NCBI GenBank assembly: GCA_020436085.1
Contig: JAGQYM010000026.1
Coordinates: 1 to 58,059 of the forward strand
Length of the DNA: 58,059 nt
Source: Cyclobacteriaceae bacterium
Lineage (GTDB): Bacteria; Bacteroidota; Bacteroidia; Cytophagales; Cyclobacteriaceae
Direction of reading: 5' to 3'
Shown here: in pieces, positions 7,016 through 36,090 of the stretch
Position numbering within the stretch: position 1 is the first letter of the stretch
Layout: each line of letters opens with the position of its first letter
Notes under the pieces: generated by a model
Databases searched by the model: none
The model's input: the letters and a program-made list of their open reading frames with translations, nothing else
What the model was told of the DNA's origin: nothing
Program-made: the position numbers and the translations under genes

Positions 7016-7031
7016 GAAACAAAGTGCCAAC

Positions 7032-7062
7032 AAAAAAAAATTGCGCGAAAACGTTCGCGCAA
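7032..7062 (-). terminator. Rho-independent terminator ending the 17-gene minus-strand unit
   Basis: TTGCGCGAA (7041-7049) and TTCGCGCAA (7054-7062) form a perfect 9-bp GC-rich stem with a four-base loop. On the minus strand it is followed by nine T (7040-7032). It lies 26 bases after the stop of the 39-codon gene, the last of the long run of same-strand genes starting at 24186. Confidence 0.85.
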
Positions 7063-7088
7063 TCGGTAACAACTAGTTCCAGACGGCT

Positions 7089-7208
7089 TTATCTTTTTAA
7101 GTAATTCATAATCATTTCCACAATAATTGTGGTCAGCACTACTAACAAAAGATATAGGAATACCGTGAATCTTCTATAATACCATCTATTCATAGCAAAC
7201 TTTTCCAT
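7089..7208 (-). CDS. Small single-pass membrane protein, 39 residues
   Basis: A short ORF beginning MEKFAMNRWYYRRF, with a hydrophobic stretch (about residues 14-36, VFLYLLLVVLTTIIVEMI) and a basic C-terminus (NYLKR). The RWYYRR flank suggests an N-in orientation. It follows the 7249-7689 gene by 40 bases and precedes the strong terminator by 26 bases, so it is probably transcribed as the last gene of the unit. No family was recognised. Its small size, single helix and terminal position suit a modulator of a membrane complex, but that is a guess. Coding status rests on the hydrophobicity and placement only. Confidence 0.5.
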   Translation of the reverse strand: MEKFAMNRWYYRRFTVFLYLLLVVLTTIIVEMIMNYLKR

Positions 7209-7248
7209 ACCACATTTCTATCTACAAACCACATCTCCCAGAAAGTGA

Positions 7249-7689
7249 TCAAATGACTTTTAGATGGATAGGGCTAGAAAATGACTCATTGCCCCACTGG
7301 TCCACAAGTCGAAAAACAATGGAATGATTTCCTTTCATCGTCAACCTGATAGGTACAGTGTAAATTGACTCTCTTGCATCATCAATTTTTACGAATACGG
7401 ACTGCAGTCCGGCATGAAATTCCGACATATTCAGGGAGAGGATTGACCCCGAAGGATAAACCAATTTTCTCTCCTCCATTTTCTCGGTATCATTTGTAAG
7501 TGGAAGCCTGTCTAACTCAATAAAGTTGTAGCTAACATTCAATTCAAGTTCAAAATCGGCAATCACCTTGACCGCAAGTTCATTAGGCAAGTCCAATGAG
7601 TCTGCTGGCAAAACCGAACTCGGGTGCGTATTTGATTCATGAAATGCAGATAGTGAGGAGACCAGAAAGCTTAAAAAAATTATTCTCAT
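7249..7689 (-). CDS. Secreted protein of unknown function, Ig-like beta fold likely
   Basis: 146 residues. The N-terminus (RIIFLSFLVSSLSAF) is a probable signal peptide. The mature part is beta-rich (LAVKVIADFELELNVSYNFIEL; SIYTVPIRLTMKGNHSIVFRL; ending VDQWGNESFSSPIHLKVI). The final VDQWGNES strand pair resembles Ig-like or fibronectin-like domains with a conserved D-x-x-G-N turn. No family was recognised. It lies in the distal part of the signalling unit, between a 141-residue secreted protein and the 39-residue membrane protein, and all four genes downstream of the ABC transporter carry export or membrane signals. Confidence 0.6.
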   Translation of the reverse strand: MRIIFLSFLVSSLSAFHESNTHPSSVLPADSLDLPNELAVKVIADFELELNVSYNFIELDRLPLTNDTEKMEERKLVYPSGSILSLNMSEFHAGLQSVFVKIDDARESIYTVPIRLTMKGNHSIVFRLVDQWGNESFSSPIHLKVI

Positions 7690-7724
7690 TATATCTTAAA
7701 ATTTGATCTAAAATATTTTTTTGG

Positions 7725-8150
7725 TTAACGTTTAAATCCGAGCGCAGCGCCACCACATCTCATATAGCCTGGATCAAACGTGTATTGTATATAGTATATC
7801 CCGGTTGCGTTGCAGGGAAAGGACAGTGCCGATGCCAGTTGACTTCCTATTTTGTTGGTAGCAACCTTGTTACGTTGACTATCGAACAATGTGACAACGG
7901 TACCCAAATCTTTGTTCCTGTCCCTTAGCGTAAGGATATAGCTAGTTCCGCGAGTGAGCACATAGGAAAACTCAATTTTCTCCAAATCAGGTTCGCCATC
8001 TATTTTATATGACTTTAGAAAATTGTAACCACCGGGCAGTCCGGTGACGGAAGAGTTAACCAGCTCATCCGGATTGCACTGTGCATTTGCCACCTGCACT
8101 GAAATTGTGAGAATGGCGATGGACAAGAAATATCTTAATAATGATTTCAT
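7725..8150 (-). CDS. Small secreted Cys-containing protein of unknown function
   Basis: 141 residues with a signal peptide ending near QVANAQ. The mature part has Cys residues in QCNPDELV, SFPCNATGIYY and MRCGGAALGFKR; the latter two could form a disulfide outside the cytoplasm. The middle (YILTLRDRNKDLGTVVTLFDSQRNKVATN) is beta-rich. The C-terminal CGGAALGFKR ending resembles small Bacteroidota secreted proteins I recall without an assigned role. It starts four bases after the stop of the 298-residue lipoprotein gene, so translational coupling is likely. Confidence 0.65.
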   Translation of the reverse strand: MKSLLRYFLSIAILTISVQVANAQCNPDELVNSSVTGLPGGYNFLKSYKIDGEPDLEKIEFSYVLTRGTSYILTLRDRNKDLGTVVTLFDSQRNKVATNKIGSQLASALSFPCNATGIYYIQYTFDPGYMRCGGAALGFKR

Positions 8151-8154
8151 AGTT

Positions 8155-9051
8155 CTAACTGATTATTTTATTGCGAATAATATTTGTGTGATTGCGAATT
8201 GCGGCAATGTCTCTTTCAGTGATATTGATTGTAGTTGTGCTGTTATCCTTGATCACCGCTATCCCATCAACGATTTCCATGGTTGAGGCTTGATATGTGT
8301 AGGTGATATCAATACTTTCATAGGCAGATTCCAATTCCCTGAAGTCAGCCATCAACGCGCTAATGCTGGCATCATGTTCGTAAAACGAAAGCAGCAGCAT
8401 GATTTGCTCCAGGATAATTTTCTGGGAGCCAATGGTCTCATGTAGTTGCTTATTGGACTCATCCAAACTAGCAACCTGGCAAGTAATGTCCATTGCCTCA
8501 ATCCATCCACCTATCAGCAGCAACACACTTAGGTTCGCGCGATTCTGAGTTTGCAAATAGTTATTAATGGAATTAAAATTTTGTGTGGTCAACAGGAGCA
8601 GAGAATCAAGATTGTTGCTATTGACTGCCAGTCGCCCGATAGTCTCTAGATCAAAGAACTGACCGATATTAAGATCTTCAGCAAGGAGCTTAATCGAGCT
8701 GAGATACTTGATCCCGTCAAGGTTCTGTTCGTAAATGTTAGTGTAACCTAAATCTGTTCCATACACACCAAGGTTCAAGGCTTGCTTGTAACTAGTATTA
8801 TACTTCTCATGATTTCGAGGTGCATTGAGAAACCTACGGTCGTATCTTGTGCCAGAAGCTTTGAGTAAAGCTGAGATTTCAAGTGGGCTTGGAATCTGAC
8901 CAAGTATACCCCCGATTAATTCGGGGTCGACAATTGGACCGCTGCTATTTGCCGAATCCAAACTCTGCTCGAATGCCAACTCATCGGGCTTGTGGCCAGA
9001 ACTGCATGCTACGCACGACAGGAGGGCTAGTGAATAAAAGATGTTTTTCAT
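8155..9051 (-). CDS. Lipoprotein of unknown function, mostly helical
   Basis: 298 residues with a lipoprotein signal (FYSLALLSCVACSSG, Cys about residue 17). The rest is mainly alpha-helical, with a regular leucine-rich pattern (NLDSLLLLTTQNFNSINNYL; ANLSVLLLIGGWIEAMDI). I recall no characterised relative. It follows the TerB-ABC transporter gene by 41 bases and precedes a secreted-protein gene by four bases. A helical lipoprotein directly after an ABC exporter could be a periplasmic or outer-membrane partner or cargo of that transporter; this is an inference from position. Confidence 0.7.
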   Translation of the reverse strand: MKNIFYSLALLSCVACSSGHKPDELAFEQSLDSANSSGPIVDPELIGGILGQIPSPLEISALLKASGTRYDRRFLNAPRNHEKYNTSYKQALNLGVYGTDLGYTNIYEQNLDGIKYLSSIKLLAEDLNIGQFFDLETIGRLAVNSNNLDSLLLLTTQNFNSINNYLQTQNRANLSVLLLIGGWIEAMDITCQVASLDESNKQLHETIGSQKIILEQIMLLLSFYEHDASISALMADFRELESAYESIDITYTYQASTMEIVDGIAVIKDNSTTTINITERDIAAIRNHTNIIRNKIIS

Positions 9052-9092
9052 TTAATCTGTTGTTTTAAGGTGTTCTATTTCAAATTGTGTAG

Positions 9093-12000
9093 TTAAATTT
9101 TTACAGTACTGATATGTTCAAATGGTTTTTTAGCCTTGAATCTTTTTGTTTTGTGAGACACCGGATGAACGGCCCGATCATAAGTATGGCAAGGCGAGAT
9201 ATAACTCGAACAAGAAGCGAGTAACATCACAGCAGATAACATTAAAGTTGTAGCCTTGACCTTCGGTTGTACTCTTAATCTCTTTATTTTTTTTATGTCC
9301 ACTCGTTCGAACAAGAGCAACCCTTTTCGTAGCGTCTCGAAGTAAAGCGTGATGCATAGTACTAGAGCCATCGTCCAGATTACTCCGAGGTCAAACCAGT
9401 AAGAGCTCAACTCTACTCCAAGCCAATTTTTTACCGGAAAGAAAAATCCCGTGCGATAATCAAATGCATGTGCCGGTGTCGCATCCTGATAGATTGGATC
9501 TATTTGCTGAATCAACTCACCCCGGTATTCAAAAAGTCTGTCTTTGACATTTACATTTTTGAGCAGGTCCGCGAGGCTTTCATTGTAATAGAGATTTTTA
9601 TTCTCATTTATATTCCATCCATTTTTCTCAAAGAATGCCATCTTCTTTTCGAGCAAGGCAGTGTGGTGATTATATTCTTCCTGATAGTGATGTTTCAATG
9701 CATCAATGAACGCGGAAATCTTTCTTCCTTCGTCACCTGAGTATTCGCCATTTCTAATGATCGCTTGGATGCCCGGATCTGCGTTTGAGATGAAATAAGG
9801 GTCACTTCCGAGGTACTTTTTTAAAACTCCAAGGTTGTGGGTAACCAGGCCTCTGACGCTATCGTCTGCCGAGTTGAAATTGGCGAGCACAAACTCATTT
9901 TTTCGTTTCAGTTCATCCGCAAGGAAAGCTGATTTGTAGTCGGCTTGGGACTGGACCTTTTCATAAGTATAGAATGATTGTCCATATTCATTGCCAACAA
10001 AATATTGTGTTGCTATTGCTTCGTATGCCCAGCGCGATGCCATGAGATCGGCCACCAACGGCACTTTACCTTTTGTGCTGATAACATCATTGAGCTTATC
10101 AAAACTAAAAAGCAGACCACTGAGGATCATTTGAGGAATAAGCAACAGCGGAATAATTACATAAACTGTAACTGCAGACTTGAATGCCGATGAAATATTG
10201 AGACCGAGAACATTGGCAAAACATGATGTTGAGAACAACACAAGCCAAAATGTGAGCACCATCCCCCTTATCTCCAGAATCGCGTTTCCAACAATGACGA
10301 AGAGAAGTGTTTGAATTGCGGAGAGCGTAAATAAAATACCCAGCTTTGAGCCGAGGTAGCTACTCCAGCTAAGATTGAGAAAGGACTCTCTCTTCAATAT
10401 TTTTCTATCGCGAATAATTTCCTCCGCGCTGACGGTGAGCCCCATAAACAGCGCCACGATAATGCTCATCAGCAGATAGGCGGGGAAGTTGTCATTGAAG
10501 CGGAATAAATACTCCTGATTGTTTGAAGCATTTTTGTAGCGGATAACAAACGCAAGAATAAAAGCCAGTACTGGTGCCTCGAGTAGGTTGATCAGCAAAT
10601 ATTGTTTGTTGCTTATTTTGGCCAATACATCTCGCACCGTGTAGATCATTGCCTGCTTTACTTTTCCAGGCAGGTTCAGCGTCTTCGGTGGCTCTTCCTT
10701 CACATCTTCAATTGGAGTAACATTGAAATTCTCCTTGTACATGCCGTGCCATTGTGATGGCGCAACTTTTCTTTTATTTGTTGGCTGCCCGTACTCATCT
10801 ACCACCTGCGCTTCGATGATGTTAAAAATTTGTTCGGGGTTAACATTTCCACAGGTCTCGCATTGACCACGATTGCTATCGATTTGATGAGTGGCCTTTT
10901 TGAAGTAAGTAATGGCCGCTACCGGAGGACCGTAGTAAGCTGGAAAACCACCAGTATCCATGATGACCATTTTGTCAAACATCTTATAGATGTCGGATGA
11001 CGGCTGATGAATAACAACGAAAATTAATTTCCCCTTGAGGGAAAGTTCTTTCAACAAGTCAATGACGTTCTCCGAATCACGCGATGACAGCCCTGAGGTA
11101 GGTTCATCCAGAAATAATACTGCTGGCTCGCGAATAAGCTCCAATGCAATGTTCAGTCTCTTTCGTTGGCCTCCGCTAATTGTTTTGTCCAAGTAACTCC
11201 CAACTTTTAAATCTTTCCGTTGATCGAGACCAAGACTCTCAAGAACTTCCATTACCCGATCGTGCAGTTCCTGCTCAGAGTATGTGGCAAAGCAAAGTTT
11301 GGCGTTGTAATACAGATTCTGATAAACCGTTAGTTCCTCAATCAGCAAATCATCTTGCGACACATAGCCAATCACCCCTTGCACTTTCTCTTTTTGCAAA
11401 TGGATATCAAATCCATTGATCACGATCGATCCTTTAGATGGCTTTTCTAAACCTGCCAGTACATTGAGTAACGTAGTCTTACCTGCACCACTTGCACCCA
11501 TGATGCCAATCAATTTTCCAGGCCCTTCTGCGATCAATACATTTCGCAGACCTACAGCCTTGTTCGGAAAAAGATATTCTTCTACGTTAGCATTGAATGA
11601 AAGCTTTGTTGTCTTTAGCTCTTCATTGAAATCTGCGATGAGATCGCTGTAGTATAGGGCATCTCCTCTTTGCGTTTTGATCGTGCTTCCATGAGAAAAA
11701 AGATAGACCCTTTGCGGTTGCATTGTAAATCCATTGAGCAGATTGGCGTCATCTCCCAGGTACTTGACAAAGTACATATCCACACTCCGAACGCGCATAA
11801 AAACCAATGCTCCACCCAAATGGGCCTGCGCGTGTTTTTGCAGTTCTGTCGTCTTACTCTCGTTGGCATCTACCACTAAAAAATTCGGAGAATTGAACTT
11901 GCACGTTGATTCTGATATGACAAACGCCTCGATCAATTCATACTCGGACGACTGAATATTAAATACAGTTGAAACTGTATTTATAATCTCCATTCGCTGA

Positions 12001-12338
12001 GCGGCAAAGTTTCCATCGGAAGCCATCAACTCCAGGAGCTTGATTAACACAACAATTTTCTGCTTTTGCGTAAGTGTCTTATTGATCTTACGGCAAATGC
12101 CGAGTGTCTTCACGGAGTCTCTTACAGAGGTTAACTTCCGCTCACTACTATCATCGCCTGCTGAATTGTATCCAGAATACTTGTCATACAAATCCAGATA
12201 TTCATTGACGGAAGCATGGTCTAGTTCCTGTTGGAAAAAGCGAATTACAAAATCTCTCTCATTCTTGCTGACACCACCGTCTTGCTTAGTGATGATGGCA
12301 AATAATTGAGTTATCGCTTTTAGAATTTCTTCACTCAT
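9093..12338 (-). CDS. TerB-ABC transporter fusion (ABCG/ABC-2 type) with lipoprotein-like tail
   Basis: 1081 residues. Residues 1-140 are TerB-like (KQDGGVSKNERDFVIRFF; LMASDGNFAAQRMEI). About 150-240 resembles an FHA-like or other regulatory beta domain (RVYLFSHGSTIKTQRGDALYY). The ATPase domain has Walker A GASGAGKTT at 281-289, signature SGGQRKRLNIAL, Walker B AVLFLDEPTSGLSS and switch His VVIHQPSSD, giving an ABCG/White-like half-transporter. A C-x-x-C (CETCGNV) lies in the linker. ABC-2 membrane helices follow from about 590, with a large soluble loop between helix groups and a last helix near 1010. The final 50 residues contain MLSAVMLLASCSS, which looks like a lipoprotein signal placed inside the ORF. 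It is the probable effector of the upstream switch genes; its substrate is unknown. Confidence 0.85.
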   Translation of the reverse strand: MSEEILKAITQLFAIITKQDGGVSKNERDFVIRFFQQELDHASVNEYLDLYDKYSGYNSAGDDSSERKLTSVRDSVKTLGICRKINKTLTQKQKIVVLIKLLELMASDGNFAAQRMEIINTVSTVFNIQSSEYELIEAFVISESTCKFNSPNFLVVDANESKTTELQKHAQAHLGGALVFMRVRSVDMYFVKYLGDDANLLNGFTMQPQRVYLFSHGSTIKTQRGDALYYSDLIADFNEELKTTKLSFNANVEEYLFPNKAVGLRNVLIAEGPGKLIGIMGASGAGKTTLLNVLAGLEKPSKGSIVINGFDIHLQKEKVQGVIGYVSQDDLLIEELTVYQNLYYNAKLCFATYSEQELHDRVMEVLESLGLDQRKDLKVGSYLDKTISGGQRKRLNIALELIREPAVLFLDEPTSGLSSRDSENVIDLLKELSLKGKLIFVVIHQPSSDIYKMFDKMVIMDTGGFPAYYGPPVAAITYFKKATHQIDSNRGQCETCGNVNPEQIFNIIEAQVVDEYGQPTNKRKVAPSQWHGMYKENFNVTPIEDVKEEPPKTLNLPGKVKQAMIYTVRDVLAKISNKQYLLINLLEAPVLAFILAFVIRYKNASNNQEYLFRFNDNFPAYLLMSIIVALFMGLTVSAEEIIRDRKILKRESFLNLSWSSYLGSKLGILFTLSAIQTLLFVIVGNAILEIRGMVLTFWLVLFSTSCFANVLGLNISSAFKSAVTVYVIIPLLLIPQMILSGLLFSFDKLNDVISTKGKVPLVADLMASRWAYEAIATQYFVGNEYGQSFYTYEKVQSQADYKSAFLADELKRKNEFVLANFNSADDSVRGLVTHNLGVLKKYLGSDPYFISNADPGIQAIIRNGEYSGDEGRKISAFIDALKHHYQEEYNHHTALLEKKMAFFEKNGWNINENKNLYYNESLADLLKNVNVKDRLFEYRGELIQQIDPIYQDATPAHAFDYRTGFFFPVKNWLGVELSSYWFDLGVIWTMALVLCITLYFETLRKGLLLFERVDIKKIKRLRVQPKVKATTLMLSAVMLLASCSSYISPCHTYDRAVHPVSHKTKRFKAKKPFEHISTVKI

Positions 12339-12452
12339 GTCTTTTCACTTTAAAAAAATCGTCTCGTTCTCATTTTTCAGAGCAAGAGATATCCCACCAA
12401 GGCCAAAAAAATCGACCTTGTAAAATCATTTCTCCTCTGAAAGTGTTGCTTT

Positions 12453-12911
12453 TTACATTGCCTGAATCTCGATCATACTTAGGTTAATCAGCTGTAGTTC
12501 TTCACGTCCTATACTTCCAAACCCGAGTATTCCACCTGATGCCGCAGCGATGTGCCGCGCCAGATCTTTTAAACTTTCAAGAAGTGCCGATGCGCATTGC
12601 TTATCAATCTTTTTCAGCACTCCGTTAGCTTTGCTAATTTGAGCAAGCAGGAATTCCATGCTTCTGTCGGCTTGCACAGGCAAGCTTGCAATCACCACCT
12701 TAAGCTTGTCCTCAAAATCCTTACCCGCCTCTTCAAAAAATTCAGCAAGCTCTTTACCCTTTCTGCTGTTTATCCAACTACTAAAGTCAGCTGCCTTTCT
12801 CATCTCATACTGATCGATAGTACCATCAGCACTTGCAATCAGTACGCTTATGTAGATTGGTAGCGCGAGGAGTTGTTCTCGTTCCTCCTCTTGTAGCATG
12901 CTTAAATTCAT
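12453..12911 (-). CDS. TerB-like helical protein
   Basis: 152 residues, soluble and helical. VLIASADGTIDQYEMRKAADF resembles the metal-binding turn of TerB proteins (A-D-G-x-x-x-x-x-E), and a second half-repeat, ISKANGVLKKIDKQCASAL, follows with Asn in place of Asp. TerB domains act as scaffolds in envelope-stress and anti-phage systems. The gene sits between the SiaC-like gene (29 bases upstream) and the TerB-ABC gene (114 bases downstream), which itself starts with a TerB-like domain. This protein could therefore bridge the phospho-switch and the transporter; that is an inference. Confidence 0.65.
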   Translation of the reverse strand: MNLSMLQEEEREQLLALPIYISVLIASADGTIDQYEMRKAADFSSWINSRKGKELAEFFEEAGKDFEDKLKVVIASLPVQADRSMEFLLAQISKANGVLKKIDKQCASALLESLKDLARHIAAASGGILGFGSIGREELQLINLSMIEIQAM

Positions 12912-12940
12912 GTCAGTAGCAAACGTGGTTAGTCTGGTTG

Positions 12941-13303
12941 TTAATAGCTTTTCAGCTCAAATGGCATCTCAACCAAGTCACGATACTCCTCGCCTGCTTC
13001 CATCATATCTTCATCATCTTCCTGATAATGCCAGAATACGGTTGTCCCTTTTACATCATTAAGTGCCGAGAGGATATCCAAAATCAGTTTTGATGAAGCT
13101 GTGTTGAAATATTCAAGGTTGAATACAAAATCTGTCGATGCATTGGAATCTCCAGAGTAACTGCGAATCCATTCAAGCACAGGCTTGTAAAACTCTGCAC
13201 AGTCCTCTGGAAGTGACCTTCCTGATATTTCAAATATTCCATTTCCCTTGTCAAGGATAATCTTAGGTGTATCTTCAGCTCCCTCGATATTTAAAATTTC
13301 CAT
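12941..13303 (-). CDS. siaC: SiaC-like (DUF1987) regulatory phosphoprotein
   Basis: 120 residues, close to the known SiaC length. The hallmark LEYFNTASSKLILDIL is present, and Thr at position 68 coincides with the Thr68 that SiaB phosphorylates and SiaA dephosphorylates in Pseudomonas aeruginosa (recalled from the SiaABCD literature). SGRSLPEDCAEFYKPVLEWI is the conserved N-terminal segment. In Pseudomonas, unphosphorylated SiaC activates the diguanylate cyclase SiaD. No GGDEF gene occurs in this window, so the partner here must differ. Gaps to the kinase (31 bases) and the TerB-like gene (29 bases) show one transcript. Confidence 0.88.
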   Translation of the reverse strand: MEILNIEGAEDTPKIILDKGNGIFEISGRSLPEDCAEFYKPVLEWIRSYSGDSNASTDFVFNLEYFNTASSKLILDILSALNDVKGTTVFWHYQEDDEDMMEAGEEYRDLVEMPFELKSY

Positions 13304-13334
13304 GTCTGTATTATTTAATAATTAGTGAATCGAT

Positions 13335-13883
13335 TTATTTAAATCTTGCGATGTTTACTTTCAAGCAGAAGAATGCGGATTCAGCGTCCACGTCTACAAA
13401 AGACCATTCGAGTTTTTCTCCTGATTTTCTCGCCATATCTACAAAGCCTAAACCAGCCCCGCCTTTATCCGAAAGCGTGGTGCTCTTAATAATTTCCTTG
13501 TAGAGTTCTTTCAAGCCTTCTTTGTCCAGGCTGTTAATCTTCTCCAGCGAAGCCTTCAAACCAGGCATGTTCTCCTTGCGAATCGGATTGCCCGACATAA
13601 TTGAATACCTGCTTTGTTCGTTTCCTATCAAGAAGATAGCCGAGTGGTGTCTTCCTCTTTCGGGGCACTCTGTCTCATCACTGTGTTTTACAATGTTTTG
13701 GAGTGCTTCCACCATCACATTAAAAATTCTTTTCTTAATAGTTGACTCTTCTCCTGATGACTCCAAATTTCTCTCCGCCATGGTAAGTATAGATTTGGTG
13801 GTCTCCTGCGTAAAGTCTCCTTCGTAGATCAGTATGACGTTGTTTGTCATCATTGACTGATGCAGATCATAGATGAATTCCAT
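13335..13883 (-). CDS. siaB: SiaB-like (DUF6272) protein kinase
   Basis: 182 residues with a GHKL-type ATP-binding fold. The N-box is FNVMVEALQNIVKHSDE and the glycine-rich lid is SDKGGAGLGFVDMARKSG. These match the SiaB family, which phosphorylates SiaC, and resemble anti-sigma-factor kinases (SpoIIAB/RsbW) without close sequence similarity. The N-terminus (FIYDLHQSMMTNNVILIYEGDFT) is also typical of the family. It lies between the PP2C phosphatase gene and the target gene with gaps of 49 and 31 bases, the order A-B-C also seen in Pseudomonas. It is expected to be cytosolic. Confidence 0.85.
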   Translation of the reverse strand: MEFIYDLHQSMMTNNVILIYEGDFTQETTKSILTMAERNLESSGEESTIKKRIFNVMVEALQNIVKHSDETECPERGRHHSAIFLIGNEQSRYSIMSGNPIRKENMPGLKASLEKINSLDKEGLKELYKEIIKSTTLSDKGGAGLGFVDMARKSGEKLEWSFVDVDAESAFFCLKVNIARFK

Positions 13884-13932
13884 TCTGTTTTTCTGTTTTG
13901 TTTAAAAATTAAATTGTGTATTTGTTTTAGTT

Positions 13933-16563: not shown

Positions 16564-17293
16564 AGTCAACCATTTTCTCTTTGTGTAATACTTCTGTCAA
16601 TTTCCCAGCGATGATGTTCAACTGCTGTAGTGTCACCTTATCAATTGCCTGAAACGTTGATACCTCCAACACTCCTTTTACTTTGGTTCCTTCGATCATC
16701 GGCACCAGAACCAGAAATGAAGGCGAAGAAGAGCCTAACCCAGAGAAAATAGTCATGTAGTTTTCTGGGAGCTTGTCGATATATAACATGCTTTTGTCTG
16801 ACGCCACTCTACCTACAAGGCCTTCACCAATTTTAAATTTGGTAGTACCTTCATCGTATGGCAGGGCGTAACCGTATTTTAATTCTAGTTCTTGTTCACT
16901 TTCGAGATAGATCGCCCCTTGTCCGGCCTGGATCTGATTACAGATCTCATTCAAAGCACTCTGTAGTGAGTCGTACGGGCCCTCGATAATTTTATCAATA
17001 GCCTCAATGCTCAGCATCCCTTCCGCATTCAACCTTGTTGTATCGGTTGACTCTACTTCACGAGATTTTTCCAGATAAACTACTCTTTCCGTCTTCGTAG
17101 TAGCCAGCACGTTCATAGCAACTGCACCAAAAAAGAATGTGGTGCCTATTAACACGCTGGCTACTCTAAATTCCTGCGATGTCGATTGTTGACCGGTCAG
17201 GAACAGAAAATAAGATGATGCAACTGCTCCAACGAAGAAAAGTGTTGGCATTAGTAGTGGCGCCTTCTTCAATATTTGTGGTTTGGTTTTCAT
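16556..17293 (-). CDS. Two-helix membrane protein with a GAF domain
   Basis: 245 residues: two transmembrane helices (about 13-31 and 42-64), a short linker, and a GAF domain at about 95-240 (GAIYLESEQELELKYGYA; FKIGEGLVGRVASDKSMLYIDKLPENYMTIFSGLG; VLVPMIEGTKVKGVLEVSTF). It has no output domain. Its GAF strongly resembles those of the phosphatase and of the 19951-22425 sensor in the same unit, including the PENYM-x-I-x-SGLG segment. The start codon overlaps the cheB stop (17290-17293) and its end overlaps the phosphatase start, so it is translationally coupled on both sides. It may be a regulatory subunit of the phosphatase (inference). Confidence 0.75.
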   Translation of the reverse strand: MKTKPQILKKAPLLMPTLFFVGAVASSYFLFLTGQQSTSQEFRVASVLIGTTFFFGAVAMNVLATTKTERVVYLEKSREVESTDTTRLNAEGMLSIEAIDKIIEGPYDSLQSALNEICNQIQAGQGAIYLESEQELELKYGYALPYDEGTTKFKIGEGLVGRVASDKSMLYIDKLPENYMTIFSGLGSSSPSFLVLVPMIEGTKVKGVLEVSTFQAIDKVTLQQLNIIAGKLTEVLHKEKMVDYV

Positions 17294-17883
17294 TTATACT
17301 GATGGTATAATTCTTTTAAAAAATCAATAATTTGATCGATCCCCAGTGTGTAGTCAATTTTGGTTAAACTCAAAGCTGCTTTTGGCATCGTGTCTATCAT
17401 GCATTCCGCAGGGGTTTGCACTATGGTAACTCCACCTCTGTCGTGAATGCTTTTCATTCCTAATCCCCCGTCTTTGTTAGCACCTGACAAAAGGATACCG
17501 ATTAGTTTCGTCTTATAGGCGTAAGCAGCACTTGACAAGGTGATATCAATAGCGGGCCTTGAGTTGTTCAGCATCATCTCAGTCGAGAGCGAAAAATAAT
17601 TTCCTAATTCAACAGACATGTGGTAGTTGGCTGGCGCCAAATAAACTGAGCCTCTCTTAATACTTTCTTTATCATCCGGCTCCGCTATTTTCAACTTGCT
17701 CTTTATAGAAAGGGCTTCAACAAATCCATGACGCACATGCTTCAACCGATGAAGGGCCATAATGATTGGCAAAGGAAAATCAGCTGGCAACTGCGAAAGG
17801 ATCTTGATAATCCCTTGAAAGCTTCCGGCAGATCCACCGATCACAACGGCTTTAAATCCATTATGTAAGCTGTACCTGGTCAT
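17290..17883 (-). CDS. CheB-type methylesterase domain protein without receiver domain
   Basis: 197 residues from the ATG at 17883 (MTRYSLHNGFKAVVIGGSAGS). A longer frame begins at 17961 but would overlap cheR by 70 bases and adds no recognisable sequence. The catalytic Ser lies in VIGGSAGSF (residue 18), His in IMALHRLKH (residue 45) and Asp in LLSGANKDGGLGM. The typical VYLAPANYHM and GGVTIVQTPAECMIDTMPKAAL segments are present. The N-terminal receiver domain of classical CheB is absent, so activity cannot be gated by CheA phosphorylation in the usual way. It starts five bases after the cheR stop. No CheA, CheW or standard chemoreceptor is present in the window. Confidence 0.88.
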   Translation of the reverse strand: MTRYSLHNGFKAVVIGGSAGSFQGIIKILSQLPADFPLPIIMALHRLKHVRHGFVEALSIKSKLKIAEPDDKESIKRGSVYLAPANYHMSVELGNYFSLSTEMMLNNSRPAIDITLSSAAYAYKTKLIGILLSGANKDGGLGMKSIHDRGGVTIVQTPAECMIDTMPKAALSLTKIDYTLGIDQIIDFLKELYHQYK

Positions 17884-17888
17884 TCTAT

Positions 17889-18713
17889 CTAGTCCCTGAT
17901 CTTTTTGAAAATTCTTTCTTCCTGATTTACCACGATAAAGCGGTTGGCATAGTCGCACCAAATCATCGACTCTTTTGCACCGATGGCCAGATAGCCATAC
18001 TTGTTCAAGCTGCCATGAAATTTTTTGAGCACTTCATTTTGCAGCGCCTGATTAAAGTAGATCATCACATTCCTGCAAAGAACGAGGTCAAATTTTGCAA
18101 AGGCCTCACCTAGCACGAGGTCATGCTTTTGAAAGACTACATTTGAAAGTAAATCCTTCTTCATCACGGCTCTTCCGTTTTCTTCAGTGTAGTAATCTTT
18201 AAGCGCTGTTTTGCCTTGGAAGCGAACGTAATTCTTTTCGTTGGTCTCCATATTCTTTAAGGAATAGGTAGCAGATCGTGCTCTGTCGAGAATTGACTTG
18301 TCAAGATCAGTTGCGAAAATTTTCACATTCTCTTTCACACCCATCTCATGAAGCATAATGTTCATAGAGATCACTTCCTCTCCAGATGAACAGCCTGCAT
18401 GCCAAATCTTGAATTGCTTGTTATTCAACATTACACCAGGGATGATCTCTTCGCGAAGCAATCGCCAAAAGCCGGGATCGCGAAACATCTCTGTGACATT
18501 GACAGTCATTTCATCCAAAAAATCATCGATGAAAATGGTGCTGTCGGCTAACTTGTTGAGCAATGACTCGATGTTCAATCCCCACACTTCGAGTATTCTC
18601 AACATTCTTCGCTTGAAGGATGACATCGCGTAATTGCGGAAATCGTAACCATGTTTGGCGTAAACCAGGTCGGTTATCCTTTTTAAATCTTTTATATCAA
18701 TATCCTGAATCAC
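17889..18713 (-). CDS. CheR-type protein-glutamate methyltransferase
   Basis: 274 residues, full length for CheR. An N-terminal helical domain (YDFRNYAMSSFKRRMLRIL) is followed by FLDEMTVNVTEMFRDPGFW, the SAM-binding IWHAGCSSGEEVISM, VKIFATDLDKSILDRAR and FDLVLCRNVMIYFNQ. All are hallmarks of CheR. The substrate would be Glu/Gln residues on a receptor helix. With no chemoreceptor nearby, the coiled coils of the 19951-22425 sensor and of the PP2C phosphatase, with their E-E pairs in an A-T-Q-E-E context, are candidate targets (inference). It is immediately followed by the CheB-domain gene. Confidence 0.92.
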   Translation of the reverse strand: MIQDIDIKDLKRITDLVYAKHGYDFRNYAMSSFKRRMLRILEVWGLNIESLLNKLADSTIFIDDFLDEMTVNVTEMFRDPGFWRLLREEIIPGVMLNNKQFKIWHAGCSSGEEVISMNIMLHEMGVKENVKIFATDLDKSILDRARSATYSLKNMETNEKNYVRFQGKTALKDYYTEENGRAVMKKDLLSNVVFQKHDLVLGEAFAKFDLVLCRNVMIYFNQALQNEVLKKFHGSLNKYGYLAIGAKESMIWCDYANRFIVVNQEERIFKKIRD

Positions 18714-18761
18714 AATCGGTGTGTTATAAGTAGTGGTATTTCTATTTCTTCTTGTTTGTTG

Positions 18762-19907
18762 TCAATTGCTCAATTGCCTGGCTCCGTTTATAATTGTCGC
18801 TCCACCCATTAATTGACTTTCAGCTCTTCGCCTGATCACAATTTTGATCTCCTGATTTACAGCATTATGAAAATCAATTTTCAACAACGCACCCATTTGC
18901 ATGGCGCGCTTTTGCGATACGTAATAATTGAAGAGGTATGGGTTAACCAGCACATCGTTGTAAAGTGATGCACTCTTGCGAACCAGTGATTGCACTTTCT
19001 GGCTTGCCAAAAAACCTAAAGAGACTATTCTTATCTCTATCCATTTTGCACTTACGAGAAAGTCGACAGTGATTTTCACTCGCTCTTCAATCACTGGTGA
19101 TGAAATGGGCAGGCTGACGATGTACATGAGTATGCTACCAAGTAGTTGATAGAGCCGCTGTTCGTCTACCCCAGTGAGTTCACCTGCTGGTGCCTTAAAC
19201 TCAAATTTTGCCTTGTCCAACTGGCAGTTGTCAACCAAAACTTTTCTCAGCACGCCTTCTAATTCTGAAAACCTGATCTGTTGCTCAGATGATTGTTCTT
19301 CATCACCATCAGCCATGTAGATCAGCTTAAAGAGACGATCGTCCAATTTGTTAGCGTGGATTTCTATCAGCGAGGTCAGCTCATCCACCTCAAAATCATC
19401 CTTACGAATTTTTAATAGATTCACCAGACCTTTGATTGTCGCCAGTGGTCCTCGTAGATCGTGAGCGGTTCTGTAGATGAAAGAATCGATCTCATTTTTC
19501 TTTGAGACCAACTCTTTCTTCATGAGGCTCACATTATCTACAACCTTTATCTTTAAGACAATGAAGCCGTTGATATCGCTGATCAATCCCAGGTAGAACC
19601 CGGAAAAAATTGCCTCAACCTGACCACCTCTCCTGGAAAGAAAAGTTCCCGGAACATTGTCGAAGTACCCAAACTTCAACCTTTCTCTGAGTTGATCGAT
19701 GAGGCCCTGGGGCTCGGTTATACTACCTAGTGATTGACCTCTTAGATCATCGGAAGAGAAATTGAGAATCTTCTCCAGGTCTCTCCCGACTGCCTCTACA
19801 CTGAAATCCATTCTGAGAATGATTGAGTCGCTCAGAATCAAATTCAGTTTTTCAATCGCTTCACTGACAGAAAACAACAGCGATGATATCTCTGGTAACT
19901 TTGTCAC
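18762..19907 (-). CDS. PAS sensor with HisKA domain and degenerate ATPase domain
   Basis: 381 residues, soluble, GTG start at 19907. A PAS-like domain (about 22-125) precedes a HisKA helix pair with the phospho-acceptor at His149 (FIYRTAHDLRGPLATIKGLVNLL). The C-terminal part occupies the place of a HATPase domain, but the N-box lacks Asn (LLGSILMYIVSLP), and no D-x-G-x-G box is seen (IRIVSLGFLASQKVQSLVRK). It therefore probably cannot bind ATP normally and may act as a phosphotransfer or scaffold protein. There is no response regulator in the operon; the nearest is the LytTR protein at 24423. Confidence 0.75.
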   Translation of the reverse strand: MTKLPEISSLLFSVSEAIEKLNLILSDSIILRMDFSVEAVGRDLEKILNFSSDDLRGQSLGSITEPQGLIDQLRERLKFGYFDNVPGTFLSRRGGQVEAIFSGFYLGLISDINGFIVLKIKVVDNVSLMKKELVSKKNEIDSFIYRTAHDLRGPLATIKGLVNLLKIRKDDFEVDELTSLIEIHANKLDDRLFKLIYMADGDEEQSSEQQIRFSELEGVLRKVLVDNCQLDKAKFEFKAPAGELTGVDEQRLYQLLGSILMYIVSLPISSPVIEERVKITVDFLVSAKWIEIRIVSLGFLASQKVQSLVRKSASLYNDVLVNPYLFNYYVSQKRAMQMGALLKIDFHNAVNQEIKIVIRRRAESQLMGGATIINGARQLSN

Positions 19908-19950
19908 CTTAGTTTGTGTTTGAAATGTTACTTGGATACTTACCCGAAGA

Positions 19951-22425
19951 CTATTTCTCCTCTAACACCAGTTCCTCGGTCCGTTTTGCGCTTTCCATAA
20001 TGGCTGTGATGTCACGGGTAATTCCCGCCACGGCCACTATTTCTCCATCTTCACCTTTAAGTGGTGAATAGCAGCTTGACAGATGCATCTCATGTCCATT
20101 GATTATCGAAATGTCTGTGTGCTCTACACGCTCGCCTTTGAAAGCCCTTTGATAGTCCTGCTTACGCAGTTCTCTTTCTTCTCCGTTGAATAGAGACAGA
20201 ATGTCAAATCCTTTCTTCACATTTACACCCATACCCTTTAGTCTCTCTGCAAAGTATTTGTTGAAGTCAGCGATCTTATAGTTCTTATCTATTGTGAAAA
20301 TCGCATCAGAAGAAATATTGATGATTTCATTGAGATACTTCTCTTTGCTCTGCGTTTGTTTTAACACTCTCTCCATTTCTTCCTGAGTAGCTGAAAGCTC
20401 CTCCATGTTCTGCCTCAGTTCTTCTTCCTGCGCTTTCATTTCCTCCGCTACCTGCTGCGACTCAGCAGCCAGGCCTTCTGCTTTTTCACGCGCTTCAGCC
20501 ATCTCTGTTATGTCTTTTGAGAAACAAACGATCGCATAGACTTCGCCTTTCTCATTCTTCAGAGGGGAATAGGTATTTACAGTATGGACCGTTTTTTCAC
20601 CGGCTACCGCTGTATCCATTACTTCGAAGTGTTCACCAGTAAGAGCACGATGATACAACGCGCGTTGCTTTTCACGCTTCTTGCCGTGAAGAATGCTTAG
20701 CATTTCAAAATCCTTCTCTGCATGAAATCCTGCATCAAGCATTTGATCACGAAACGAATTGTTGAAGCTGATCAGCTTGAAAGATTTGTCGATGGTGCAA
20801 ATAGCATCATTCGATGAATTCAACACTTCATTCAGATATTCTTCCTTAGATTGTGCGGCTTGCAGTACTCGTTGCATTTCTTCCTGAGTTGCAGACAACT
20901 CCTCCATGTTCTGACGCATCTCTTCTTCCTGCGCGCGCATTTGTTCTGCTTGTACCTGGGTTTCCTCCAGCAGCCTCTTTGTGCGTGTGTTTACTTTAAC
21001 CGAAGAGATCGCGGACGCGATGCTCTCGCCTAGTTTCTGCACAAACTCGATTTGATGTGGAAGTATGGTCTGAAATGACGCTAATTCAACCACTCCAAAA
21101 ATTGTCTCGTCTAATTTCAATGGAACGATCAAAAGATTTCTTGGTAGCGCCTCGCCCAATCCTGAGGTGATATGCATGTAATTTTCTGGAACATCGGACA
21201 TATAAATGGTATCCTTCTCCAGAATGCATTGCCCTGTCACACCTTCACCAATTTCTATTCGCTTGTTTAAGAATTTCTTTCTGCTGTAAGCAAAGCACGC
21301 TACCAGTTCGATAAACTGATCATCAGAGTTATCGTCATTGATCAGGAACAATGCGCCCTGACTTGCATTCATGTACTTGACGAGGTTGGCCACAATATTG
21401 TCTGACAGCTCGCTCAAATTGTCATTTCTTGAACGTAGGATATCTGCAAATTTTGCAAGGCCTTCTGTTGCCCAGCTTCTTTTGTGATCTTCCTCTGCAG
21501 CTTGACGCAAGTTGTCACGCATGGTGATCAGCGCTTCTCCCATCGTATCTTCTTCACTCAGCAAGTCAAACTTGCTCTGATAGTTTCCTTTTCCAATATT
21601 TTCCGCGAACTCAACTTTAGCCTTCAAGCCGGTGAGCATATTTTGAATCGCCTCTGCCATTCTCCCGATCTCATCTCTACCCTTCTTCAAAGTAACCGAC
21701 ACAAATTTCCCGCGCGACACCATCGTAATTAGATCGCTGAGATCCCCAATTGGCTTGGTGATTGACTTTACCGAGAAATAGGAGGCATAAATACCTATGA
21801 CAACAAACAACACGATGTTGCCCAGATATAGGTAGGTGAGCAGGTTAGAAAATGATTCCTTCCTACTACGGGCCGCGTCCAAAAGTTGGTTTTGGCGGTT
21901 AGTGGCTTGCCCGATTTGATTGATAACACTCTTGTAAGTAGGTGTTACTTTTTTATCAATTGCTGTGATAACTTCATCGATGATAATGTCATCGGCATAC
22001 GATTCATCACTTGATAGTTTTTCCATCACCGGCACTTCTTCTATAAGTAGCTGATCAACAGTCTTCATGATCGCTCGTGCCTCCTCAACTGCTGTGATGT
22101 TGTCCAATTTTCCGCTCACCGAGAGGAACCTCTCCCTGAGTTCACCCGCATCGGTAGCATGAATTGTTTTGAGTTTCTCCTTTTCCTTGATGCTCGGCTG
22201 ATACAGCCAGTTGTTTGTAAGTTTATAAGATTCTGAAGCGAGCATCTCCAACTCCTTCAATGAAAGAATCATTGGATAGTAAGCTTCGGAAACACTTCTG
22301 TCAATTTTTCTATTCTGCCAGGCCGTATACATACTGATAAGTGTTGTCACAAAGGCCAGGCATATCACCAGCGCGTAGCCGGTCATAATTTTTGCAACAA
22401 TCGAGTTCTTGATCTTACTGAACAT
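19951..22425 (-). CDS. Membrane sensor with HAMP, GAF and two PAS domains and no output domain
   Basis: 824 residues from the ATG at 22425 (MFSKIKNSIVAKI). The frame is open for 31 more codons upstream, but those residues are not signal-like. TM1 is about 12-33, a four-helix periplasmic domain follows (about 35-195), TM2 about 197-219, HAMP to about 285, then GAF about 325-465. After that come two copies of a coiled coil (EEEMRQNMEELSATQEEM and EEELRQNMEELSATQEEM), each followed by a PAS domain (about 535-645 and 705-815). There is no kinase, cyclase, phosphatase or MCP signalling domain. The periplasmic helical bundle with HAMP resembles chemoreceptors, so it may report by contacts with neighbouring proteins and be a CheR/CheB substrate (inference). 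Confidence 0.8.
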   Translation of the reverse strand: MFSKIKNSIVAKIMTGYALVICLAFVTTLISMYTAWQNRKIDRSVSEAYYPMILSLKELEMLASESYKLTNNWLYQPSIKEKEKLKTIHATDAGELRERFLSVSGKLDNITAVEEARAIMKTVDQLLIEEVPVMEKLSSDESYADDIIIDEVITAIDKKVTPTYKSVINQIGQATNRQNQLLDAARSRKESFSNLLTYLYLGNIVLFVVIGIYASYFSVKSITKPIGDLSDLITMVSRGKFVSVTLKKGRDEIGRMAEAIQNMLTGLKAKVEFAENIGKGNYQSKFDLLSEEDTMGEALITMRDNLRQAAEEDHKRSWATEGLAKFADILRSRNDNLSELSDNIVANLVKYMNASQGALFLINDDNSDDQFIELVACFAYSRKKFLNKRIEIGEGVTGQCILEKDTIYMSDVPENYMHITSGLGEALPRNLLIVPLKLDETIFGVVELASFQTILPHQIEFVQKLGESIASAISSVKVNTRTKRLLEETQVQAEQMRAQEEEMRQNMEELSATQEEMQRVLQAAQSKEEYLNEVLNSSNDAICTIDKSFKLISFNNSFRDQMLDAGFHAEKDFEMLSILHGKKREKQRALYHRALTGEHFEVMDTAVAGEKTVHTVNTYSPLKNEKGEVYAIVCFSKDITEMAEAREKAEGLAAESQQVAEEMKAQEEELRQNMEELSATQEEMERVLKQTQSKEKYLNEIINISSDAIFTIDKNYKIADFNKYFAERLKGMGVNVKKGFDILSLFNGEERELRKQDYQRAFKGERVEHTDISIINGHEMHLSSCYSPLKGEDGEIVAVAGITRDITAIMESAKRTEELVLEEK

Positions 22426-22537
22426 GATATTTTTATTTTGGGAATTCAAAGGCTGGAATTCAAGTTCGTGAAGGGTCAGAGCTGCGCTAATGGCAGCCCC
22501 GATCCCAACCCAAACCAACTAATCAACCTATGTTACT

Positions 22538-22984
22538 TTATTTGACGATCAGCACTACTTTCACCTTCGACTTGGCGTCTGCTGAAAGTGAACTCACATT
22601 CACAAATCCAATCGCGCCTACTTCTTGTGCTACGAAGTCTATGATCGCTGAGTCCGAAGCAAATTTGTCTTGAGGTTTCTCTGCATTCTCGTATTGCTTT
22701 TGTGTGAAGTAAGTCTCCACATCGCTTGATGACATTCCGAGAACCTTTTCGTAGAAAGAATCCTGCTCTTCACACTTAGACTTTCTGTCAGCAGGCTTGA
22801 TATTCTTGTTGATATCTGGCCATCTCTTTTTGATCTTTCTCAACCAGTAAAGTTTTACTTCACCTTCTGTCAGCTTGTCAACAACATTCTCTTTGTTGAT
22901 AATTACTGCTATCTCTGTACCCGCTGGTCTGAAGGCAGCCAAAACAACTGCGAGCAACGGTATTATGAATAATAACTTTTTCAT
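22538..22984 (-). CDS. Small periplasmic phosphate-binding-protein-like (PstS/PBP-fold) protein
   Basis: 148 residues with a signal peptide (LLFIIPLLAVVLAAFRPAG). EIAVIINKENVVDKLTEGEVKLYWLRKIKKRWPD and VAQEVGAIGFVNVSSLS match the short PBP-like proteins annotated as phosphate ABC transporter substrate-binding; full PstS proteins are twice as long. No ABC transporter permease for phosphate is present. It lies 29 bases after the porin gene and before the sensor whose periplasmic domain it could contact. A role as a periplasmic ligand carrier for the sensor is an inference. The ligand may not be phosphate. Confidence 0.75.
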   Translation of the reverse strand: MKKLLFIIPLLAVVLAAFRPAGTEIAVIINKENVVDKLTEGEVKLYWLRKIKKRWPDINKNIKPADRKSKCEEQDSFYEKVLGMSSSDVETYFTQKQYENAEKPQDKFASDSAIIDFVAQEVGAIGFVNVSSLSADAKSKVKVVLIVK

Positions 22985-23013
22985 GATTTTACTTTTTTCT
23001 GTTTTCTATTGAA

Positions 23014-24186
23014 TTAGAACACAAACGCGAACTGCATACGAACCCTCGTGTTCTTCACTGAATTCACAAATCCATCGTCTCTCTTGCCAAGGCCTGGCAC
23101 TACGATGTCCTGGTAAAAGGTCTTATTGTTTTCAGTCTCATACTCCAACTTGCATACGAAGTTTGAGTTCAGCTTGTACCGGACACCAAGTGTCACTTGA
23201 TTTACCTGAACAGGAATTGGTGCGAAGTAAAGGTCTCCTTCTGTAGTGGATCTACCAGCTTGCGTGTAGTTATAGAGAACATAAGGGGTAAGCTTATCTG
23301 TTACTTTAAATCCTCCATACATGTAGTATGAGAAACTTCTGTAGTCACCGAGGTTATCAAACTTGCTTGTCTGACTTAAAATTTCTGCAATGGCTTCGAT
23401 CTTCTTTTCAGGATTCATGTAGGCTACTGATCCAACCAAAAGTTGCAGATCGCCATTGTCTGGCAGCGAGGAGATGCTTCCATTTGGATTTGGCTTACCT
23501 TGCTCGATTCTGTCAAACATACCTGAGGCCATCACTTTAAGACCTTCTACAGGCTCAGCACCAAGTTGCACTGTTGTCGCCACGTGATTGTCAGACTTAT
23601 CGCTTGAGCCATAGTAGCCAATACCATTTCCTAGGAGAATCTTGTAGGACAAACGTGCCTTACCAATGTTGTCTCCCTCAAATTGAACACCAATATCGCG
23701 ATACTGAAGAGGGCCCCCTTCACTAATCGGGCGGATGGCAAACGGCCTTTGAATAGTAGGCTGAAGCACCAATCCCATGGTGTACTGATTGTTCCAGTAC
23801 CCGATCGGGGTAAACATTTTACCTACACGCACACTAAAGTAATCCTGAAAATAATAGCGCACCATAAGACGCTGAATTTCAAAATTGTAGGTATTCTTCT
23901 TGTTATTGAAGTTGGCCTCTCCAAGAACAGATAACCTTTCGCTAAGCTGCGAGGTAACAAACAACACAAAATTGCCAGTGTTAAAGTTTGTTTTGGACTT
24001 CTGTGTAGAGTCGCTTGTGATATACTCACCTAGTCCGCTTACACCATTGAAGCGATTTTTTTCGGTTGTCTGGTAGTTCGTGATTTCCGGCTGACCAAAA
24101 AACCTGATTTTAGTATCCTGTGCGAAGATGTTAATTCTCCCAGCTACCAGAACTACTAACGTTAGAAATAGAATTCTCTTTTTCAT
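23014..24186 (-). CDS. Outer-membrane porin, first gene of the signalling unit
   Basis: 390 residues with a signal peptide (ILFLTLVVLVAGRINIFAQ). It is a beta-rich barrel with RVGKMFTPIGYWNNQY, a segment typical of phosphate- or anion-selective porins of the OprP/DUF3138-like kind, and it ends in MQFAFVF, a terminal aromatic strand. Neither the substrate nor the specific family is certain. It is the first gene after a 236-base gap, so the main promoter of the long unit should lie at 24187-24300. Porin plus small PBP plus HAMP sensor is an arrangement I recall in other phyla as a ligand-sensing set. Confidence 0.75.
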   Translation of the reverse strand: MKKRILFLTLVVLVAGRINIFAQDTKIRFFGQPEITNYQTTEKNRFNGVSGLGEYITSDSTQKSKTNFNTGNFVLFVTSQLSERLSVLGEANFNNKKNTYNFEIQRLMVRYYFQDYFSVRVGKMFTPIGYWNNQYTMGLVLQPTIQRPFAIRPISEGGPLQYRDIGVQFEGDNIGKARLSYKILLGNGIGYYGSSDKSDNHVATTVQLGAEPVEGLKVMASGMFDRIEQGKPNPNGSISSLPDNGDLQLLVGSVAYMNPEKKIEAIAEILSQTSKFDNLGDYRSFSYYMYGGFKVTDKLTPYVLYNYTQAGRSTTEGDLYFAPIPVQVNQVTLGVRYKLNSNFVCKLEYETENNKTFYQDIVVPGLGKRDDGFVNSVKNTRVRMQFAFVF

Positions 24187-24422
24187 GTTAAAGTGTCTTG
24201 TTTTACAATTGTTTTGTGCCGCAAGATTACTTCAACACCTCCGGTCGCTATACCGGTAATGAGTAGGTGGGAGTTTCAGTTAGTATCTGGCTGTGATCGT
24301 GAGAGGAGATCGAAATGAGGGATAGTGATCTGGAAAAAATAAAAATTGACTTGAATCAAAAAACAAACAATTATCTCGGAGAGAGAGACCAACTATAAAA
24401 TAAAATTCTGAGATAAAAGGAA
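24187..24422. other. Intergenic region upstream of the 17-gene unit
   Basis: This gap separates the LytTR regulator from the porin gene and should hold the unit's promoter. No convincing TAnnTTTG box with a spaced TTG was found. Two inverted repeats are visible: CCGGT-N6-ACCGG (about 24241-24256) near the porin side, and TTATCTC/GAGATAA (24371-24377 and 24410-24416) just after the LytTR stop. The second is followed on the minus strand by T-rich sequence and may be a weak terminator. Either could be a regulator site. Confidence 0.4.
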
Positions 24423-25172: not shown

Positions 25173-25231
25173 AGTCTTTACGAAATTAAACCTCTTTTCA
25201 TGAGACGATCGAAATCAGTGGGGAATTTTCC

Positions 25232-35946: not shown

Positions 35947-35983
35947 TGTCATCATAGTCGAGCAAGCAGTGTCTGCTTAATCG

Positions 35984-36090
35984 ATTTATAAAGAAGCGCT
36001 GAGAGACAGGCTCTAAGAAGCGCTAGCAACCTGTTCAGAAGAACAAGGTGCTAATTCCTGATCCCGGCAAATGCCGAGGAGAATATAAAA
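35984..36090 (+). ncRNA. SAM-I (S-box) riboswitch
   Basis: Conserved core elements appear in order: P1 arm TTATA (35986-35990) closing with TATAA (36084-36088); P2 built on AGCGCT (35995-36000 and 36019-36024) around GAGAGACAGGCTCT; GCAACC (about 36026) followed by a P3 hairpin CCTGTTC-AGAA-GAACAAGG; then GGTGCTAATTCC (36048-36059), which is the S-box signature; and a P4 hairpin CGGCAAATGCCG. It senses S-adenosylmethionine. The downstream genes make homocysteine precursors, which fits feedback control. Confidence 0.92.

Follow-up and report, generated by a model that had tools for sequence, protein, structure and literature searches.

We analysed a window of 58,059 nt from a Cyclobacteriaceae bacterium (contig JAGQYM010000026.1 of assembly GCA_020436085.1, positions 1 to 58,059 of the forward strand) and found that a run of minus-strand genes contains a nine-gene core in the order CheR-CheB-GAF-SiaA-SiaB-SiaC-[TerB-ABC]-lipoprotein-secreted protein, where TerB-ABC is a TerB domain fused to an ATP-binding cassette (ABC) exporter. 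This core is a real, ancient operon, conserved among Cytophagales. Its regulators form a variant SiaABC partner switch whose output is probably new, and we consider it reasonably probable that it is a two-part Cytophagales operon: a SiaABC switch with a methylation module (part one) would operate the exporter (part two). A more detailed proposal is tentative, and we give it somewhat less than an even chance: CheR/CheB methylation would act on the signalling helix of the phosphatase, the phosphatase would set SiaC phosphorylation, and SiaC would gate the ABC exporter. The combination is not described in the open-access papers that we searched, subscription papers and preprints lying outside that search; DUF1987 turned up there in a single paper. 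Window features below are on the minus strand unless stated otherwise, and the papers cited are drawn on in excerpt.

The regulators resemble the SiaABCD system of Pseudomonas aeruginosa, which likewise comprises a PP2C phosphatase (SiaA), a kinase (SiaB) and a target, SiaC, with residue T68 (profile matches; PDB 6k4e, 6kko, 6k4f). In P. aeruginosa, SiaA and SiaB set the phosphorylation of SiaC T68 (PMC7647112), and phosphorylated SiaC is unable to bind SiaD (PMC8457831); the latter excerpt also suggests that DUF1987 proteins modulate neighbouring proteins. The window's SiaA-type phosphatase (g08, 13933..16563) has two transmembrane (TM) segments followed by HAMP, GAF, coiled coil, PAS, PAS and SpoIIE (SpoIIE 72.7 bits; 6k4e, E 8.2e-43), and its PP2C domain, aligned to 6k4e, retains the metal-site residues in the GDF, VDCxGHGVPGA, MD, DG and DD blocks. 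The SiaB-family protein kinase (DUF6272; g09, 13335..13883) matches NF038262 at 184.6 bits (cut-off 85) and PDB 6kko_A (E 1.9e-14). SiaC (g10, 12941..13303; Pfam SiaC 126.8 bits) can be aligned to SiaC structures from P. aeruginosa (6kko/6k4f), and N67 and T68 are invariant in all 56 aligned rows (two rows repeat genomes). Unlike SiaABCD, the operon has no SiaD or GGDEF protein and adds CheR, CheB, a GAF protein and the exporter; its proteins also fall below the NCBIfam equivalog cut-offs for the Pseudomonas proteins (SiaA 216.5 of 700 bits, SiaB 85.3 of 225, SiaC 81.8 of 150). The added regulators are a CheR methyltransferase (g05, 17889..18713; Pfam CheR 147.8 bits), in which the region of the S-adenosylmethionine (SAM) site, HAGCSSGEE, is at least 95% conserved over 43 rows; a CheB methylesterase (g06, 17290..17883 from its ATG; Pfam CheB 163.1 bits), whose motifs GGSAGS, LHRL and SGANxDG are conserved in 43 rows; and a GAF protein with two TM segments (g07, 16556..17293; Pfam GAF_2 35.8 bits; TM at residues 13-31 and 42-60).

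Scattering of these genes among relatives had been named beforehand as evidence that they form no unit. The outcome mostly favoured a unit: of 50 genomes that we mapped, 33 have the core from CheR to TerB-ABC in one uninterrupted block, although it is not universal and the run as a whole is not conserved; the synteny exceeds chance for the nine-gene core, not for the whole run. The 50 are genomes with an operon-type exporter, with regions fetched mainly around exporters (G061 and G088 by the SiaA coil). The 33 full-core genomes, in which all six regulators lie upstream of the exporter, span 27 genera and 11 families; regulator order is identical in 32 of them, and downstream of the exporter 32 have g13, the lipoprotein gene, and 26 have g13 plus g14, the gene for the secreted protein. 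SiaC is upstream of the exporter in 42/50 mapped genomes (13 families). Similarly, in the 15 loci from named genomes with SiaB (L003-L017), SiaC always follows SiaB and the exporter start always follows SiaC (g11 intervenes in L003 and two reverse open reading frames (ORFs) in L012; the sequences of L014 and L017 stop partway through the exporter), with CheR-CheB-GAF upstream in 11. In other mapped genomes the CheR-CheB-GAF part, or more, is missing, and L079, L081 and L084 have the six regulators without the exporter. A separate profile search, built on the aligned ~265 N-terminal residues of the exporter and run against 148 Cytophagales genomes, found the exporter in 91; SiaC was present in 95 of the 148 (both in 89, SiaC only in 6, TerB-ABC only in 2, neither in 51). 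Among 296 genomes drawn from the phylum, five had the exporter, four of them belonging to the window's family. Variant operons also exist: in L053 a g03-like receptor separates SiaC from the exporter, and L085 and L086 have CheB-GAF-SiaA-SiaB-SiaC without an exporter.

The window has both enzymes of chemotactic adaptation with their catalytic motifs, but the genome has no methyl-accepting chemotaxis protein (MCP; PF00015, found in 7 of 14 control genomes), and the Pfam search of g06, the genome's sole CheB match, found CheB_methylest alone, with no receiver domain. MCPs are absent from 19/33 full-core genomes and from 9/15 of the named genomes. It is plausible from these data that CheR and CheB are used on a non-MCP substrate. 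The CheR methylation-site consensus is Glu-Glu-x-x-Ala-Thr (PMC1079850). Searches by motif and coil profile point to the coiled coil between GAF and PAS in SiaA, which reads LRQNAEEMxATQEEL and contains EEMQAT at 15508..15525, the proposed methylation site. Two such coils occur in g03 (19951..22518), a receptor with two predicted TM segments, HAMP-GAF-PAS-PAS and no output domain (Pfam): one has a site at 20887..20904 comparable to the consensus (PMC1079850), and coil 2 has EELSAT at 20386..20403. In the whole genome the coil profile (E <= 1e-4) has only these three matches, SiaA once and g03 twice. The likeliest reading is that the methylation target includes the SiaA coiled coil itself, beyond the output-free receptor. 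The candidate substrate would then be the linker of a phosphatase, in contrast to the MCPs of chemotaxis (PMC1079850) and to FrzCD, acted on by FrzF (PMC2535941), as those excerpts present them.

Comparison among genomes gave partial agreement with this proposal. Among the 148 genomes, 78 had coil and CheB, 6 the coil only, 26 CheB only and 38 neither, a count that ignores phylogeny. We aligned 48 SiaA rows (ORFs of 700 aa or less were left out, and L015 and L016 were dropped from the identity comparison); over the 45 from CheB-bearing genomes, mean pairwise identity was highest in the coil, at 0.65, compared with 0.61 in GAF, 0.57 and 0.54 in the two PAS domains and 0.61 in PP2C. Two CheB-less loci, L014 (Raineya) and L111 (G126), keep a SiaA that lacks the motif; when the 48 rows are ordered by coil/PP2C ratio, they come 48th and 45th, respectively. 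The short SiaA-like ORFs of further CheB-less genomes (L097, L113, L117 and L118; 400-628 aa) are also motif-less; they were left out of the comparison because their architecture is not comparable.

Several observations weigh against SiaA-coil methylation. Only 29/48 SiaA rows carry the strict motif (34/48 if Ser is allowed for Ala), 13 motif-less rows come from CheB-bearing genomes, and L055 and L064 have CheB together with a diverged coil. Conversely, genome G016 (99% complete) lacks CheB yet gives two matches to the coil, G126 still gives a weak one (1.2e-6), the less complete genomes G110, G111, G124 and G134 have the coil without CheB, and L036 (G134, 84% complete) has the motif with no CheB match. 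The related EELAAS also occurs in the neighbouring PAS kinase at 25232-28663, and the motif is therefore not specific. MCPs are present in the remaining 14 of the 33 full-core genomes and could be the CheR/CheB targets there, and the presence/absence tests ignore phylogeny throughout. An alternative, which we regard as unlikely yet the strongest of its kind, is that CheR and CheB modify a protein other than SiaA or g03, for example g07 or the exporter: g07 is a membrane GAF protein that always adjoins CheB in full-core loci, while the coil profile singles out SiaA and g03 in the window's genome. Across the order, many CheB domains are encoded within open frames of ~1000-2200 aa, that is, as parts of large multidomain proteins.

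We next consider the output of SiaC. Pseudomonas SiaC activates a diguanylate cyclase. We found a GGDEF domain in only 1 of 148 Cytophagales genomes, one that lacks SiaC (SiaC being present in 95/148), and the window's genome gave no match in a profile search to which 8 of 14 controls responded. Thus a cyclase is not the SiaC output here, action through cyclic di-GMP was rejected because GGDEF is nearly absent from the Cytophagales sampled, and a different output is needed for SiaC. In Cytophagales the best candidate for it is the exporter, and the partner switch probably controls this protein. SiaC-type proteins are widespread and the Pseudomonas cyclase is their only known output. The operon offers a concrete candidate for a second one.

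A tree of 74 exporters is consistent with this proposal (ORFs of 700 aa or less were left out, and L015 and L016 were dropped, being from the same genomes as L024 and L023). One clade of 61 members (support 100) contains all 52 SiaC-adjacent copies, and none of the 13 exporters outside it adjoins SiaC. Of the nine non-adjacent clade members, L012 has the reverse ORFs in between, in L029 the SiaC frame was probably missed, and L060 is cut by a contig end. In addition, the window's genome has a second locus (L018; G000:C158:20001-40000, 10182-15041) with SiaC, exporter, g13 and g14 but without CheR, CheB, GAF, SiaA or SiaB; the ORFs on either side of it border the full operon in L019-L022. This second copy retains SiaC-exporter-g13-g14 without the genes from CheR to SiaB, indicating that SiaC travels with the exporter.

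The exporter itself (g12, 9093..12338) combines TerB, an FHA-like piece, an ABC ATPase and an ABC-2 membrane part, as judged by Pfam, NCBIfam, Foldseek and TM prediction. ABC_tran (112.1 bits) lies N-terminal to ABC2_membrane (67 bits), an ABCG-like order (TIGR00955 was under its cut-off), and the membrane part has five predicted TM segments, a ~240-residue loop and a final TM segment. The TerB domain (residues 8-136; 11931..12317) scores 30.5 bits against a Pfam cut-off of 24.4; the exporters of L008 (21.0) and L016 (19.4) fall below it. TerB is also a component of the TerB/Ter stress systems; in the operon, by comparison, it is fused to an ABC exporter. The FHA-like piece (about residues 176-237; 11628..11813) corresponds to the C-terminal half of the FHA fold only. 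With a model of mean predicted local distance difference test (pLDDT) score 71, Foldseek placed FHA domains at the top with probability 1.00 and a best E of only 0.037, and a sequence profile separately matched the same MEK1 FHA domain (E 0.014), weakly and over about 50 residues. No FHA match was found in the exporter with Pfam, and the Gly-Arg, Ser/His and Asn residues of the pocket are not recognisable by eye. A close known system is Rv1747-PknF-Rv2623 of Mycobacterium tuberculosis, in which an ABC exporter with an N-terminal FHA domain is controlled by a threonine-phosphorylated partner (PMC5549992). It differs from the operon, where the exporter has TerB and half an FHA-like fold, no Hanks-type kinase is present, control is proposed to run through SiaC, and the phosphothreonine-binding residues are not recognisable. 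A phosphothreonine link as in Rv1747 is a lead only, and we rejected the claim that the FHA-like piece binds phosphothreonine because the pocket is not visible. The window exporter also has a C-terminal tail (9093-9240) with a lipobox-like LLASC, absent from the 12 relatives compared.

The helical lipoprotein g13 (8155..9051) belongs to a family that accompanies the exporter. It has no Pfam or NCBIfam match and no structural relative (model mean pLDDT 75.5, best E 2.1); its role therefore rests on its neighbourhood alone. Because a g13-like lipoprotein lies directly upstream of 5 of the 13 exporter paralogs outside the SiaC-adjacent clade, g13 looks like a general partner of the exporter family. 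The small secreted protein g14 (7725..8150) is conserved 3' of g13 by synteny.

Two results count against control of the exporter by SiaC. The exporter is truly apart from SiaC in six clade members (L040, L042, L044, L045, L056 and L066), and the FHA match is weak, with none at E <= 0.001 and no recognisable phosphothreonine pocket. These split loci favour a competing explanation, that SiaC targets something unlinked and the exporter is merely co-expressed with the switch, as do the multiple SiaC copies, which lie mostly away from the exporter, and the SiaB-SiaC pairs without an exporter in many CheB-less genomes. We judge this explanation improbable, since SiaC adjoins the exporter in a single exporter clade only, where the arrangement has held across 13 families, and since SiaC and exporter remained together in the window genome's second copy while SiaA, SiaB, CheR and CheB were lost. 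SiaC is multicopy in many Cytophagales, reaching at least 27 matches per genome (G047, G102), and several SiaC switches may therefore run in parallel.

Between the switch and the exporter that it probably controls, we found a hairpin 5' of the exporter gene (12375..12442; -28.1 kcal/mol, z -2.48, an energy matched by 3 of 200 shuffles). Across loci, the SiaC-exporter gap (median 115 nt) gave a median z of -3.10 against dinucleotide shuffles, with z < -2 in 36/48, while four other gaps gave median z values of 0.27, 0.06, -0.13 and -0.61 (20 shuffles each with our own shuffler; L015 and L016 dropped). A hairpin of at least 10 pairs with a T-run was present in 23/39 gaps and in 19/117 shuffles. 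The hairpin separates the signalling half of the operon from the export half, and it may attenuate transcription or mark a site of mRNA processing. The preliminary description had raised the question of one transcript for the run; a single uniform one is not supported, and we set it aside in view of this position-conserved hairpin. The same structure, often followed by a T-run, is what favours the possibility that signalling and export are two independent transcription units, neighbours by chance. We hold this to be about as improbable as an unlinked SiaC target: order and neighbourhood are conserved across families, and an internal hairpin could attenuate rather than separate.

That the genes are an ordinary one-strand run with no functional unity, as the extension of the minus strand past both ends of the run might suggest, is refuted for the nine-gene core by synteny and the exporter clade and is very improbable overall. 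Minus-strand ORFs continue beyond both ends, and therefore the limits of the run are marked only by a gap of 236 nt (24187-24422) on one side and by the terminator on the other. Within it, the genes all lie on one strand from 24186 down to 7089, as first described, and the widest gap between ORFs is indeed 114 nt (12339-12452). The far-end terminator, a strong one, also stood (7031..7064; pattern scan): a hairpin at 7064-7039, with 11 pairs in the scan, precedes nine T. The gene number fell from 17 to 16 (15 ORFs of at least 120 aa plus a 39-aa ORF at 7089-7208). As to the reported overlaps, that at 17290-17293 is present, and that at 16556-16563 holds only if SiaA starts at the ATG at 16563. 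A 73-nt CheR/CheB overlap appears in the ORF list with a TTG start; the ATG at 17883 abolishes it, and it is probably an artefact of the TTG start. The domain calls were upheld by profile searches (BBP2 porin, PstS-like protein, output-free receptor, CheR, CheB, DUF6272/SiaB, SiaC and TerB-ABC).

The genes at the front of the run are largely local. They encode a porin-like outer-membrane protein (g01, 23014..24186; Pfam BBP2 34.8 bits, cut-off 26.2), a secreted PstS-like protein (g02, 22538..22984; TIGR02136 37 bits, under the cut-off of 206.6), g03, and a HisKA protein (g04, 18762..19907; Pfam HisKA 24.2 bits, under the cut-off of 26.9). The Pfam search gave no HATPase match for g04, its H-box AHDLRGPLAT is conserved in an alignment of four orthologs, and it is likely a pseudokinase. 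Orthologs of g01, g02 and g04 occur in only 3/15 relatives (L003-L005, with g01 and g02 in the same position), a count in which some contigs are cut and L006 and L011 end before the region. An outer-membrane and periplasmic head had been counted as part of the unit; this distribution does not support it, and the porin and Pst-like genes were rejected as a general sensory input, having orthologs in L003-L005 only. In the window and in L003-L005, SiaA is 878-883 aa long, compared with ~1040-1230 aa in most others; a region of ~300 residues between the two TM segments of SiaA in L008, L016 and L028 is missing from the window's SiaA. The receptor g03 has its own periplasmic stretch (predicted TM segments at residues 44-62 and 226-244; the ATG at 22425 is the likelier start), and the pseudokinase, Pst-like and porin genes also stand at the front of the run. 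We infer that sensing may have shifted from SiaA to separate proteins in the window's variant. Shorter g03-like genes precede CheR in L007-L010 and L012.

Three further genes lie outside the core. A stand-alone TerB-like protein (g11, 12453..12911; Pfam TerB 16.1 bits, under the cut-off of 24.4) is encoded between SiaC and the exporter and has an ortholog in L003 only; g15 (7249..7689) encodes a secreted protein with weak relatives, by synteny, in L004 and L005 only; and g16 (7089..7208) is the 39-aa ORF, with a single TM segment, and is doubtful as a gene (ORF scan and TM prediction). For g15 and g16, lack of functional unity with the run is likely. Directly upstream of the run, at 24423-28663 on the minus strand, are genes for a LytTR response regulator and a 1143-aa multi-PAS LytS-type kinase, and a SAM riboswitch lies at 35983-36091 on the plus strand (74.5 bits).

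Together, these data are compatible with the following scheme. SiaA, helped by g03 and g07, and the kinase SiaB would set the phosphorylation of SiaC Thr68. CheR would methylate, and CheB demethylate, Glu residues in the SiaA GAF-PAS coil and in g03, and the phosphatase would thereby be biased or adapted. Unphosphorylated SiaC would bind the TerB/FHA-like head of the exporter and switch it, the lipoprotein g13 and the secreted g14 would act with the exporter outside the inner membrane, and the hairpin would probably set the relative expression of the signalling and export parts. The biochemical steps, notably SiaC-exporter binding and SiaA-coil methylation, we infer from features read directly in the sequence: gene content and order, conservation, catalytic motifs, T68, the lack of MCPs, the single CheB, the coil motif and the hairpin. 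The putative chain from methylation through SiaA and SiaC to the exporter, as put forward in the preliminary description, would fit the conserved active sites, the invariant T68, the scarcity of GGDEF and the lack of MCPs.

The operon offers a concrete candidate for a non-MCP substrate of CheR and CheB. If the scheme is true, bacteria without MCPs would have a chemotaxis-style adaptation loop for export, SiaC-type proteins would have a third kind of output, and exporter, lipoprotein and receptor families that are currently unnamed would gain a function.

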